Of a stretch of DNA of 64,000 nucleotides, positions 11,094 to 15,028 are shown piece by piece. Made by a program: the position numbers and the translations under genes. The stretch covers positions 3,495,501-3,559,500 of the forward strand of contig FP929003.1 in NCBI GenBank assembly GCA_000196815.1, in the 5' to 3' direction. Positions within the stretch are counted from its first letter, which is position 1. Every line of letters begins with the position of its first letter. The stretch comes from Nitrospira defluvii. GTDB lineage: Bacteria > Nitrospirota > Nitrospiria > Nitrospirales > Nitrospiraceae. A model generated the notes under the pieces. It saw only the letters and a program-made list of their open reading frames with translations. It made no database searches and was not told the origin of the DNA.

Positions 11094-12953
11094 TCAGTGT
11101 TCGTGCCCGTTTCCATGGTGACAGCCCGGACGTTCGCCGTCTTCCGTCGGCCCATCCTTGTCCGGGCAGGGCAAATCGCTCTTGTCCTGTATCTCGAACA
11201 TGGCCATCATGGCATGATCCTCATGCAAGACGTTATGACAGTGGATTGGATACTGGCCCTCGAAGTCCCGGAACCGCATCAGCAATTCAACCTCGCCTCC
11301 CGGGTCCAACCGCACGACATCTTTCCGCCCCGCTTCGATGTCGGCCACCGGCAGGCCATTCCGTTTGAGCAAGAGAAACTCATTGTGGTGAACATGGATC
11401 GGGTGATCCCAGCCACCGCCACCGTTTTTGAAGGTCCAGATTTCGGCCGAGTTGCGTTGGACATGAGCCACCACCTGCCCATCCTTATAGGGACGCCCGT
11501 TGACCGTCCACATACCATTCCCACGATTGAAGATGAACTCTCGTTTGCCCTGACAACGCAGCGCTTCGTGCGACACATCTGGCCGTTTACGTAACACCTC
11601 TGGCACACGGCTCGGGTCAGGAGCATCGCGCACCACGTCGAAGCGCAGCAACGGCACTCCTTTGCTTTCGACATCAGCCGGCTTGGCCCCACCAGTCTGG
11701 CGCAGCCGATTCTCAAGGCAAATCTGGTCACCGATCTTGCTTTTTGAAAAATCGATAATGACATCGATCCGTTCGGCCGCCCCCAAGCGTGTCGGCGTCT
11801 GCCGTTCGACGGGACGCTCCAGCAAGTTCCCGTCGTTGGAAATCTGCGTGAAGGTCATGCCGTGGCTAAGAAAAAGCTGATAAAACCGCGAGGGACCGGC
11901 GTTGAGGAACCGGAACCGATACTTGCGCCTGGCAACCTGGAAATAGGGCTGAATCACGCCGTTCACCAAGACCTTGTCGCCTACCACTCCCGCCGTATTG
12001 GTTGTGTCGAGATACAGCAACCCATCGCCCGGATCAAATGCCTTGTCGGTCAGCAAGATCGGCACATCATATTCCCCACTCGGCAAGCGGAGCGCCATGG
12101 GATTCGAGTCGAGCTCGTTGCCGGAATCCAGTTCGTCGAACAGCAGGAACATCCCCGTGAGGCCCTTATACACATTGGCCGCCGTCGCATCGTGCATATG
12201 GTCGTGATACCACAGGGTCCCGAGCGCCTCGCTGGGATCACCCGCCGCAGAGAAGCCATCCCGGACGCGCGGATCCAGGTCGTACCCCGCATACTGGTTC
12301 GCGTAGCACTGATCATGAAACAAGCCGTTCTTCCAGAAATTCCGCGGGTTCCCGTCGCTTTCCGGCGCCGTGTGACCATTGTGTAGATGAGTCGAGACGA
12401 AATGGCAGCCGAACTCATATACCTTCGCCTTCTCGGGAACTTTCGGCGCCTTGTCCGACACTTCCGGGAGCAGGTTCCAATTCCGGAGAATGACTGGTCG
12501 GCCATAGCGCGCATGGTAGACCGGACCTGGCGAATGTCCGTTGAAGCCCCAGACCGGTTGCAATGGGAGGTCCGGATGGAAGGAATGCAAAAACTCTTGT
12601 TGGCGAACTTCATACATCGTCACCGGGCGCTGAGGATCCTGAAAAAGCGTCTCGAATTGCTGGTGCGGGAGCCTGCGGCCTTCGCGGGGATCGGAACTCG
12701 GATCTTTGGTCGGGATAGGATTCACGAGCGCGACCGGCTGCTGAACGGGTGGAACCGGCATCGGAACCGCAAAAGGCCTGGTGCAGGGACTCTTCAAATC
12801 GCCCAGGATCCGATCTGCAATCTCCTTGGCTTCATCCGAAATCGGGCAGGTGGAACTTGGATGGCTCCAGGCGCGGCCGCCTGCTCCCGGCACCCACAGC
12901 CCGGCAGCCGTCAGCACGCTCCATTTCATCAAATCACGTCGCGAGAGTGCCAT
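11094..12953 (-). CDS. Tat-exported multicopper oxidase (CotA/SufI-like)
   Basis: 619 residues. The N-terminus SRRDLMKWSVLTAAGLW is a twin-arginine signal, so the enzyme is exported folded. The four copper-ligand clusters of multicopper oxidases are visible: THLHNGH (188-194), WYHDHMHD (about 247-254), HPIHVHHNEF (about 523) and HCHNVLHEDHAMM (571-583, containing the type 1 Cys/His and a Met axial ligand). The C-terminal tail is His-rich. The family oxidises phenols or metals (Cu, Mn, Fe) and reduces O2 to water. Its ATG overlaps the TAA of the peroxidase gene by one base (TAATG), so the two are translated together. Confidence 0.9.
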   Translation of the reverse strand: MALSRRDLMKWSVLTAAGLWVPGAGGRAWSHPSSTCPISDEAKEIADRILGDLKSPCTRPFAVPMPVPPVQQPVALVNPIPTKDPSSDPREGRRLPHQQFETLFQDPQRPVTMYEVRQQEFLHSFHPDLPLQPVWGFNGHSPGPVYHARYGRPVILRNWNLLPEVSDKAPKVPEKAKVYEFGCHFVSTHLHNGHTAPESDGNPRNFWKNGLFHDQCYANQYAGYDLDPRVRDGFSAAGDPSEALGTLWYHDHMHDATAANVYKGLTGMFLLFDELDSGNELDSNPMALRLPSGEYDVPILLTDKAFDPGDGLLYLDTTNTAGVVGDKVLVNGVIQPYFQVARRKYRFRFLNAGPSRFYQLFLSHGMTFTQISNDGNLLERPVERQTPTRLGAAERIDVIIDFSKSKIGDQICLENRLRQTGGAKPADVESKGVPLLRFDVVRDAPDPSRVPEVLRKRPDVSHEALRCQGKREFIFNRGNGMWTVNGRPYKDGQVVAHVQRNSAEIWTFKNGGGGWDHPIHVHHNEFLLLKRNGLPVADIEAGRKDVVRLDPGGEVELLMRFRDFEGQYPIHCHNVLHEDHAMMAMFEIQDKSDLPCPDKDGPTEDGERPGCHHGNGHEH

Positions 12954-15028
12954 TAGGATTTCCCTCCCTTTCCGACGCTGAGCTGCAACTGTTCCTCAAA
13001 AGATTTCAGACAGGCCGATTTCGATCGGCCTGTCTTGCCGACCGCCGGCAATTGCCGCGTCAGTTCCCGGTAGGTCCCATCGCTGTTTCGGCTGTAGCCG
13101 TCCGGAATCGTCAACGAAGGATGATCGAATGGGGCCTGCTCGCACCGCACCCGCTCGTCGGTCAAACTTTTCAGGAACGCCACCAAGGCATTCTTGTCCA
13201 CTTCGTTGAGCCACAGCGGTGTGATCTCAGGCGCCTGCTCCGCGTTAAGAAAATCGCCGCCTCGGTCATAGAATTCCACGACCTGCCTCAGCGTGCTCAG
13301 TCCGCCGGTGTGCATATACGGCCCTGTCAATTCGACGTTGCGAAGGCTCGGCGTTTTAAACGACCCATTGACGGCCGCTCGCACGAGGTCGGGACGCTCG
13401 ATCGACTCGCACGGCTGAATCGCAAACCCGCAGGGATCGACGGTGAACAGATCCACAGTCCCTTGCCCGGTCTTGAGATGCGGCAGATATTGCTTGGTAA
13501 ACGACAGCGGGTGCCCGAAGGGATCGTTCAGGCCAATGCCGAGATCCTCCGCCGTCGGGCGTACGCCGAGGTTGTAGAACCCGCTATCGTACATGGCCGT
13601 GTCACCCTGCTGCATCTCGTGCATCCGCATCAATTCGACCTGCTCGCGATGCTCTCGATCGGCCTTGAACGACTCAAGTCCGGACACCGTGAGCTCAGGA
13701 CCACGATGGCAATCCACGCACTTGCCGCGATCCATGAAGACCGAGAACCCGAACGCGGCCAACCCGTCGAGCGGCTTGCCGCCGGGTTTGTTCTTGAGAG
13801 CGTCGATGTGCTTGTCGAAGGGGCTTTGATCCGAGATCAATGTGGCCTCGTAGAGCATGACGGCAATCCCGAAGAACATCGAAAAATTGTTTTCGATCAT
13901 GGCGAACTCACTCGCCTTGAGCGTCTTAGGATCGCGGGGATCGCGCCACCAGTGATCACGGAACGCGCGTTGAATCAACTCACGGTAAGTGACCCTCAGC
14001 CCGTCCGTCGGATGACGAAACACACCGAGCACGCCGTCGTTCCGATCCACACGTTGTGTGTAGAGGGGCCGCGGGATGCGCGAGATCATCTTGCGCCCCA
14101 ATTCCGGCCAGCTCTGGCAGCTCATTTCAGCGGAGTTCACCGGAGGGCCGAGGGCTTGGGACGCCAGCGCCGCAGAAGGCAGATCCAACGACACCGCCCG
14201 CAACGTGACAGCGGGAGAGCCTGTTTTCCCGATCCTTTCGGTGAAGACTCGCATCAACTGGTGCCGTGGCCGGACCGTCCCGTCCGGATTCGACTCGGGG
14301 CTTGCATTCGGATCGGCAAGCTCGCGCTGGCCGAATGGATTGACGCCGTTGAAGTGGTTGTTGGCGCGACCATCCCAAAACGATCGAAATTGAAAGACGG
14401 CATTAATGACCGTCGGGGCATTCCGTCCGGTCGTCGCGCGCGAGTGGCCTGGGTTCAGGCAAGCCGTTCCCTGCGATCCAACCACGTCGTTCGTATCGAA
14501 GAGGACCTCCGAATCCGTCCGCGCCGGATCTTTGACGACATGAAACGGGAAATCCCCCACCTTGAGCGCATAGGCAGGTCCACCGAGGCCACCGCTCCTC
14601 GTGGGGTCCAGCGATCCCGGCTGCGAGCCATTGCCGGCCCCCCCGTTCAATTGTCCTCGTGTGCGGGTATCGGTACCCGCGTGAAAATGGCAACTCGCGC
14701 AGGCCTGCCCGTCGGAACCTAGTTGGCGATCCCAGAATAGTGCCTTGCCAAGCGCGATCGCTGTCTGTCGCTGCCCCGGCTTCAGCAGGTCCGCAAGTTG
14801 CCCGTCCGTCGGTTGAACCTGGGGCAGCTGCTTGCGGACTTCTGCAAAATCCATCTGCTTCGCGAGGCCCAGGATCTCTGCCGCCGGGGTCGGCACTTCT
14901 TCCTCATGCACCGCAGGCGCAACCGGCGTCAGGTCAGCCGCAGGGGCGCGCTCCACATGCATACCGGTCACAGCGAGTAGCGACGCGACGAGGAGCACAC
15001 CCGCGCCGATGGTTGTTCTCGATGCCAT
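12953..15028 (-). CDS. di-heme cytochrome c peroxidase-family protein
   Basis: 691 residues from ATG 15028, with AAGGAGGAG just upstream. A signal segment (about 8-32) exports it to the periplasm. Two heme c sites are visible: CASCH (110-114) and CVDCH (about 436-440). The late motif YMHTGGLSTLRQVVEFYDRGG region is characteristic of CCP/MauG proteins. It is clearly longer than classical CcpA (~330 residues), with an extended N-terminus and inserts, so peroxide reduction cannot be assumed; MauG-like oxidation of a partner is an alternative. It is the first gene of a coupled pair with the multicopper oxidase, which suggests a joint periplasmic redox role. Confidence 0.9.
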   Translation of the reverse strand: MASRTTIGAGVLLVASLLAVTGMHVERAPAADLTPVAPAVHEEEVPTPAAEILGLAKQMDFAEVRKQLPQVQPTDGQLADLLKPGQRQTAIALGKALFWDRQLGSDGQACASCHFHAGTDTRTRGQLNGGAGNGSQPGSLDPTRSGGLGGPAYALKVGDFPFHVVKDPARTDSEVLFDTNDVVGSQGTACLNPGHSRATTGRNAPTVINAVFQFRSFWDGRANNHFNGVNPFGQRELADPNASPESNPDGTVRPRHQLMRVFTERIGKTGSPAVTLRAVSLDLPSAALASQALGPPVNSAEMSCQSWPELGRKMISRIPRPLYTQRVDRNDGVLGVFRHPTDGLRVTYRELIQRAFRDHWWRDPRDPKTLKASEFAMIENNFSMFFGIAVMLYEATLISDQSPFDKHIDALKNKPGGKPLDGLAAFGFSVFMDRGKCVDCHRGPELTVSGLESFKADREHREQVELMRMHEMQQGDTAMYDSGFYNLGVRPTAEDLGIGLNDPFGHPLSFTKQYLPHLKTGQGTVDLFTVDPCGFAIQPCESIERPDLVRAAVNGSFKTPSLRNVELTGPYMHTGGLSTLRQVVEFYDRGGDFLNAEQAPEITPLWLNEVDKNALVAFLKSLTDERVRCEQAPFDHPSLTIPDGYSRNSDGTYRELTRQLPAVGKTGRSKSACLKSFEEQLQLSVGKGGKS

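Follow-up and report, generated by a model that had tools for sequence, protein, structure and literature searches.

What does an oversized di-heme protein of the cytochrome c peroxidase (CCP)/MauG family do beside a multicopper oxidase (MCO) when the two genes overlap? The question is raised by a gene pair of the nitrite-oxidizing bacterium Nitrospira defluvii, located in a 64,000-nucleotide stretch of DNA (GenBank assembly GCA_000196815.1, contig FP929003.1, positions 3,495,501 to 3,559,500 of the forward strand) that we call the window and whose own numbering is used below. The pair and the features on which the argument depends are as follows.

12953-15028, minus strand: oversized di-heme CCP/MauG-family protein, 691 amino acids, ATG start, with a Sec-type signal and a C-terminal PFDHP motif
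14687-14701, minus strand: heme 1 motif CASCH (C110-H114), kept in 95/97 aligned relatives
13706-13720, minus strand: heme 2 motif CVDCH (C437-H441), kept in 96/97 aligned relatives
13268-13270, minus strand: Tyr587, the counterpart in alignments of MauG residue 294 and MacA Met297, where the C-terminal heme has its axial ligand
12962-12969, minus strand: AGGGAGGG, a Shine-Dalgarno-like sequence 8 nt 5' of the MCO ATG (the sequence is seen, the role presumed)
12951-12955, minus strand: TAATG, in which the CCP stop TAA and the MCO start ATG have one base in common
11094-12953, minus strand: MCO of the bilirubin-oxidase/CotA type, 619 amino acids, predicted to be exported by the twin-arginine translocation (Tat) route
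12924-12944, minus strand: Tat motif SRRDLMK of the MCO
11403-11411, minus strand: MCO residues Trp515-Asp-His517, which match in alignment the Trp-x-His of bilirubin oxidase that bears a covalent adduct
11223-11243, minus strand: HCHxxxH copper motif, MCO residues 571 to 577

The two proteins are very likely functionally linked, and the best reading is that the heme protein is devoted to the copper enzyme, as its oxidative maturase (or redox partner), in the manner of the mtoX-SCO1-mauG and MopE-SACCP systems but with an MCO as the partner. Co-location is conserved, the association recurs, one fusion occurs, genes for the copper chaperone SCO1 are linked to the pair, and the heme protein has a Tyr at the MauG axial position together with conserved catalytic residues. 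The linkage is thus well supported, and what we infer is the chemistry, i.e., the direction of action, the identity of the modified residue, and the occurrence of any modification.

Within the genus, a full-length CCP relative and the MCO are both present in the same 4 of 29 genomes (G000, G021, G023, and G028), overlapping in all four, and the pair stays together in G021, where the flanking genes differ. The other 25 genomes have neither gene; the CCP matches found there are short and point to other CCP-family proteins, and three of these genomes have distant MCO matches of 20 to 23 bits. Compared with the close relatives L080 and L081, both genes have nonsynonymous divergence (dN) of 0.025 to 0.057 and synonymous divergence (dS) of 0.31 to 0.62, and the low dN relative to dS indicates purifying selection on both. 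Across the phylum (395 genomes), the MCO was found in 11 genomes at E ≤ 1e-60 and the CCP in 33 at E ≤ 1e-30. The CCP adjoins the MCO in 9 of the 11, namely, the four genus members plus G131, G212, G230, G260, and G268, and the last five, which belong to sister genera, have the gene order MCO-SCO1-CCP (SCO1 identified by Pfam in G268 and by profile in the other four). The remaining two, G154 and G328, have the MCO without a CCP nearby.

The sequence-only reading of this locus had staked its proposal on the pair being conserved outside close strains, and it is: Nitrospirota, Verrucomicrobiota, Acidobacteriota, and Pseudomonadota all have members with the pair. Scanning named genomes for relatives of 14 CCPs, we took the best 80 of 533 confirmed relatives (i.e., the nearest only) and searched all open frames within ~8 kb with MCO, SCO1, and CCP profiles. 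An MCO scoring over 300 bits lay within 8 kb at 9 of these 80 CCP loci: L099 (Nitrospiraceae), L109 (Verrucomicrobiia), L111 (Trichocoleus, 3 kb away), L120 and L122 (Verrucomicrobiaceae), L123 (Acidobacteria), L132 and L137 (Noviherbaspirillum), and L148 (Methylococcaceae). SCO1 scoring over 100 bits was likewise near 9 of the 80, the same set minus L111 and plus L152, so that both genes occur together at 8. Weak MCO matches of 20 and 25 bits (L114 and L149) and a weak SCO1 match (L114) were left uncounted. By chance, ~0.6 to 0.65 MCOs would be expected near 80 random places (P value for at least nine, ~3e-8); this expectation is based on 25 MCO places at E ≤ 1e-30 in ~60 Mb of ten genomes and is generous, as the ten were picked for having MCO or SCO1 near their CCP. 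The MCO counts are lower bounds, because many loci end at contig borders and Pfam picked up one divergent MCO (L093:4222-5622), although no additional MCO of an unrelated kind came up beside the CCPs when motifs were searched for.

An independent collection of plasmid records gave a similar picture, with an MCO of the same type close by in four of the seven records that contain the CCP. One of these, CP099603.1 (Comamonadaceae OTU4NAUVB1), is annotated as multicopper oxidase, hypothetical, SCO family protein, and cytochrome-c peroxidase, the last two genes overlapping by 4 nt; the other three are from Paraburkholderia, among which SCO1 was checked in AP028202.1 only. On a tree of 97 CCPs, from which most repeated loci and pieces shorter than 430 amino acids were left out, the neighbors were labeled as MCO (19, including the weak L149), CorA-like (13), SCO1 only (2), or none found (63). 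The MCO label requires 9 changes on this tree, with at least 6 of them forced by well-supported branches, compared with 17.6 in shuffles, suggesting that the link arose or was lost repeatedly. The clade containing the window protein comprises eight Nitrospiraceae rows, all with an MCO (support, 96).

A single 2,436-amino-acid frame in the genome of Verrucomicrobiia bacterium Tous-C2TDCM (locus L109, NEUQ01000007.1) holds both an MCO (residues 316 to 910) and a CCP (residues 1799 to 2429), with Spondin_N and Ig-like domains between them and SCO1 directly upstream. This fusion is known from one metagenome-assembled genome; no second one was found among 288 genomes of the same phylum, and a relative in G645 consists of the CCP only (62% identity), with no MCO in its vicinity. 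That the two genes travel together by horizontal transfer as coincidental cargo is very improbable, even given their patchy spread in the genus (4/29), when weighed against recurrence at six or more well-supported places on the tree with differing gene orders, this fusion, and the purifying selection on both genes.

The overlap is less informative. The sequence-only reading described it correctly, as one base is common to stop and start; it is TAATG in two of the relatives and a 4-nt ATGA in the third (G021). Overlaps of 1 to 5 nt are ordinary in the window (4 of 24 adjacent same-strand gene pairs, with naive starts), and the overlap alone therefore says little. Translational coupling is possible, but the earlier claim that the proteins are made in a fixed ratio is unsupported, because the MCO has its own Shine-Dalgarno sequence, AGGGAGGG, with a similar purine-rich sequence at the equivalent place in the other three Nitrospira relatives. 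Separately, the CCP gene contains near its 3' end a perfect 12-bp hairpin with a T-rich tail behind it (13008-13035, minus strand), at a distance of ~55 nt from the MCO start that follows; it is strain specific, not being kept in the three relatives, and is one of three places in the window with a perfect 12-bp hairpin.

What kind of enzyme might the heme protein be? It matches Pfam CCP_MauG (5e-20), has exactly two CxxCH motifs and is, as the sequence-only reading proposed, oversized, with 691 amino acids compared with ~310 to 480 residues in the matching solved peroxidases and MauG. The extra size consists of insertions plus the C-terminal PFDHP region, which is present in 100 of 104 frames. 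MauG Tyr294 and MacA Met297, with which Tyr587 aligns, are presumably the distal ligands of the C-terminal heme. Tyr occupies this position in 96 of the 97 aligned relatives (the remaining one has a gap), and the other MauG-like catalytic positions are also well kept: Gln291 (88/97) and Glu301 (97/97), which we take to be the catalytic Gln and Glu, and Trp218 (94/97), which we take to be the inter-heme Trp. In classical peroxidases, the electron-entry heme is Met ligated. Because of the axial Tyr587 and the conserved Glu301, Gln291, and Trp218, the heme protein appears from its sequence to be built like MauG, unlike a classical peroxidase. An axial Tyr is not rare in itself, since the genome encodes two further CCP-family proteins and, although one carries Met at this position, the other also carries Tyr.

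The MauG equivalog TIGR03791 (76.6 bits against a curated cutoff of 443.85) and the MbnH equivalog TIGR04039 (the best NCBIfam match, 94.9 bits against 362.85) were both rejected, as was a RoxA-like rubber oxygenase, for which one relative and the fusion gave only a marginal match and which was absent from the phmmer matches to the window protein. Structure predictions of the two proteins, from alignments of 14 and 12 rows, had mean predicted local distance difference test (pLDDT) scores of 42.7 and 49.2, too poor to use.

The partner MCO matches Pfam Cu-oxidase_2 (3.9e-19), and all four copper-ligand motifs (HxH, HxH, HPxHxH, and HCHxxxH) are present and invariant in a 12-sequence alignment; across 37 MCOs from the collected loci, the copper ligands are conserved at a frequency of 1.0 except for H571 (0.97). 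The nearest solved structure by profile is fungal bilirubin oxidase (7.4e-99). SCO1 lies within 8 kb of 28 of the 37 MCOs, and SCO1 copper loading therefore seems to be the general rule, with the di-heme protein as an added part. The NCBIfam models for CueO, PhsA, and CopA scored below their cutoffs (162.8/525, 166.4/950, and 27.8/478.95 bits). The MCO also has an extra His194 (12372-12374, minus strand) in an HxHNxH sequence near the type-2/3 copper ligands, which is present in 95% of the 37 MCOs and has no equivalent in bilirubin oxidase or CotA in the alignments.

Several described systems combine a copper protein with a di-heme protein. The mtoX-SCO1/senC-mauG cluster encodes a copper enzyme, the methanethiol oxidase SBP56, together with SCO1 and MauG (PMC5739008). 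The likeness to our loci includes an operon-like set of copper enzyme, SCO1, and MauG-like di-heme protein and the occurrence of two-part fusions; in the clusters described there, however, the copper enzyme is SBP56 and not an MCO, and the fused parts are SCO1 and MauG (PMC5739008). The di-heme protein here, moreover, is ~700 amino acids long, and an SCO1 gene in the operon, as in mtoX clusters, is found in the sister genera. In methanotrophs, MopE and SACCP form a similar pair of copper protein and di-heme protein (PMC3621798), and the copper site of CorA consists of Kyn62-x-His64 and His114, with the di-heme neighbor CorB described as the thought but unproven maker of the kynurenine (PMC3912023). 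In both cases, a di-heme CCP-family protein adjoins a copper protein with a Trp-derived kynurenine in a Trp-x-His site, as far as these accounts describe them (PMC3912023, PMC3621798). The partner here is instead a four-copper oxidase and not a copper-binding surface protein, and CorB and SACCP are likened to our protein by their descriptions and not by sequence. MbnH/MbnP (TIGR04039) similarly pairs a MauG-like di-heme enzyme with a conserved partner protein, but the window protein is far below the cutoff of that family.

CorA-like proteins also occur beside sister branches of our CCPs. Flanking-gene clustering recovered a family of 41 secreted proteins adjoining other CCP-family members, of which 27 were scanned and 10 matched Cu_bind_CorA (best, 9.3e-7); many contain the sequence GWTHTSxW. 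No CorA-like gene adjoins the window CCP gene. By analogy, the CorA/CorB, MopE/SACCP, and mtoX systems point to a role of the di-heme protein in copper-protein maturation. Among the functions that the sequence-only reading had suggested, enzyme maturation is accordingly the best supported, by the axial Tyr, the SCO1 genes in the operons, and these CorA-like neighbors, whereas metal oxidation has no direct support here. The open-licence literature, a scope that leaves most subscription papers and the original N. defluvii genome paper outside, yielded no description of such a set with an MCO.

We therefore tentatively favor, as the best single mechanism, that the di-heme protein matures the copper enzyme, a reading that is quite possible but short of probable. 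A MauG/CorB-like di-heme enzyme and the periplasmic MCO of bilirubin-oxidase type to which it is dedicated very likely form a functional unit. In it, the di-heme enzyme would draw on peroxide, by way of high-valent hemes, to oxidize an aromatic residue in the copper protein or in some component required for its loading. The active form would thereby be completed, and SCO1, sometimes fused to cytochrome c, would deliver copper in most relatives. MauG-like enzymes install protein-derived cofactors and few of their partners are known, and the recurring MCO-SCO1-di-heme set and the natural fusion name a partner for a large uncharacterized CCP branch.

A conceivable target is Trp515. In bilirubin oxidase of Myrothecium verrucaria (6iqz and 2xll), Trp396 is covalently joined to the type-1 copper ligand His398 (PMC6757100). 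Bilirubin oxidase is the best profile match to our MCO and has the same Trp-x-His at the type-1 copper, although it is fungal, whereas the bacterial MCOs here adjoin SCO1. Because the cousins of the heme protein appear to act at the Trp-x-His of CorA-like proteins, the MauG/CorB-like enzyme might by analogy oxidize Trp515 at Trp515-x-His517, to kynurenine or a Trp-His cross-link, thereby setting the potential of the oxidase. We regard this specific version as improbable. If it were true, an MCO would have a protein-derived cofactor made by an enzyme and not by the copper site itself. The set thus raises the question of whether a laccase-class enzyme needs oxidative maturation; at the corresponding position, bilirubin oxidase already has a Trp-His bond of an unusual kind.

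Several observations weigh against maturation, and against Trp515 in particular. All 37 MCOs have the type-1 copper Trp-x-His, whether or not a CCP lies nearby, and among W, Y, H, C, M, and K residues none separates the 22 CCP-adjacent MCOs from the 15 without a CCP, so that no partner-specific target site is visible in the MCO. To our knowledge, fungal bilirubin oxidase has no di-heme partner and forms its Trp-His bond without one. With no CCP-specific residue either, the conserved Trp-x-His is suggestive but weak as a hint of the target. The bilirubin oxidase Trp has also been described as activated by the type-1 copper potential (PMC6757100). No SCO1 gene stands beside the pair in the window or in its three genus relatives, which thus lack this part of the mtoX-type arrangement; two weak SCO1 matches lie elsewhere in the genome, one of them over the cutoff. 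Of the 97 CCPs on the tree, moreover, 63 have no MCO, SCO, or CorA-like gene found nearby. Finally, only the window clade (4 of the 97 rows) shares with MacA a His ahead of the RNAPT motif, and the other 93 differ; given this His, the Nitrospira members may behave more like peroxidases.

The strongest competitor to oxidative maturation, though in our view somewhat unlikely, is an electron-transfer pair in which the di-heme protein shuttles electrons between the MCO and a periplasmic pool of cytochromes, or accepts those released by the MCO substrate, and leaves the MCO unmodified. The fusion and fixed proximity suit the stable contact that this would involve, and some of these clusters encode SCO1 as a fusion with a mono-heme cytochrome c. 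However, the axial Tyr makes the C-terminal heme unlike the Met-ligated entry heme of classical peroxidases, and no electron-carrier gene was seen adjoining the pair in the window.

An unlikely alternative is a peroxide and copper stress operon, with the CCP removing hydrogen peroxide and the MCO oxidizing Cu(I) or Mn(II), the two being only coregulated. “Candidatus N. defluvii” is reported to be without catalase and superoxide dismutase, and for defense against reactive oxygen species an MCO resembling a Mn oxidase has been proposed (PMC3578206); the retained His at the MacA distal position would also fit. That Mn-linked MCO is placed in an NXR cluster in the account given there (PMC3578206) and has not been matched to the window MCO, and we have no evidence for or against Mn(II) oxidation by the pair. 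On the other hand, two more CCP-family proteins are encoded in the genome, a classical peroxidase would not have the axial Tyr, and coregulation alone would not predict a single fused protein.

Some further features of these loci deserve mention. A family of large secreted proteins with the core consensus LPANxLTxxxxFxQAP and SPDxRFTLDxDN is found near oversized CCPs (L082:4802-7312, L085:9322-11793, L095, L096, L123, L148, L201, L153, L169, L108, L117, L140, and L217). In a 13-member set the core has no Pfam or NCBIfam match, with only tail domains matching; full-core matches occur in 10 of the 29 Nitrospira genomes, and the four with the CCP-MCO pair are not among these.

SCO1 proteins carry one CxxCH motif at L098:4844-5935, L109:1501-2673, L137:6278-7273, L198:8618-9526, L201:6232-7605, L202:5234-6583, L217:3474-4406, and L218:6724-7725, and in the Pfam-scanned MCO clusters L098, L217, and L218 they are fused to a cytochrome c domain. 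Between MCO and SCO1, three betaproteobacterial clusters encode a secreted protein of 158 to 170 amino acids (L137:5717-6229, L217:4438-4923, and L218:6221-6697; 29 to 36% identical), for which the scanned L217 and L218 members had no Pfam match. Lastly, in other Nitrospiraceae (L089, L090, L156, L162, L173, and L175), one or two oversized CCPs occur with CorA-like GWTHTS-motif proteins, several of which end in PEP-CTERM tails.

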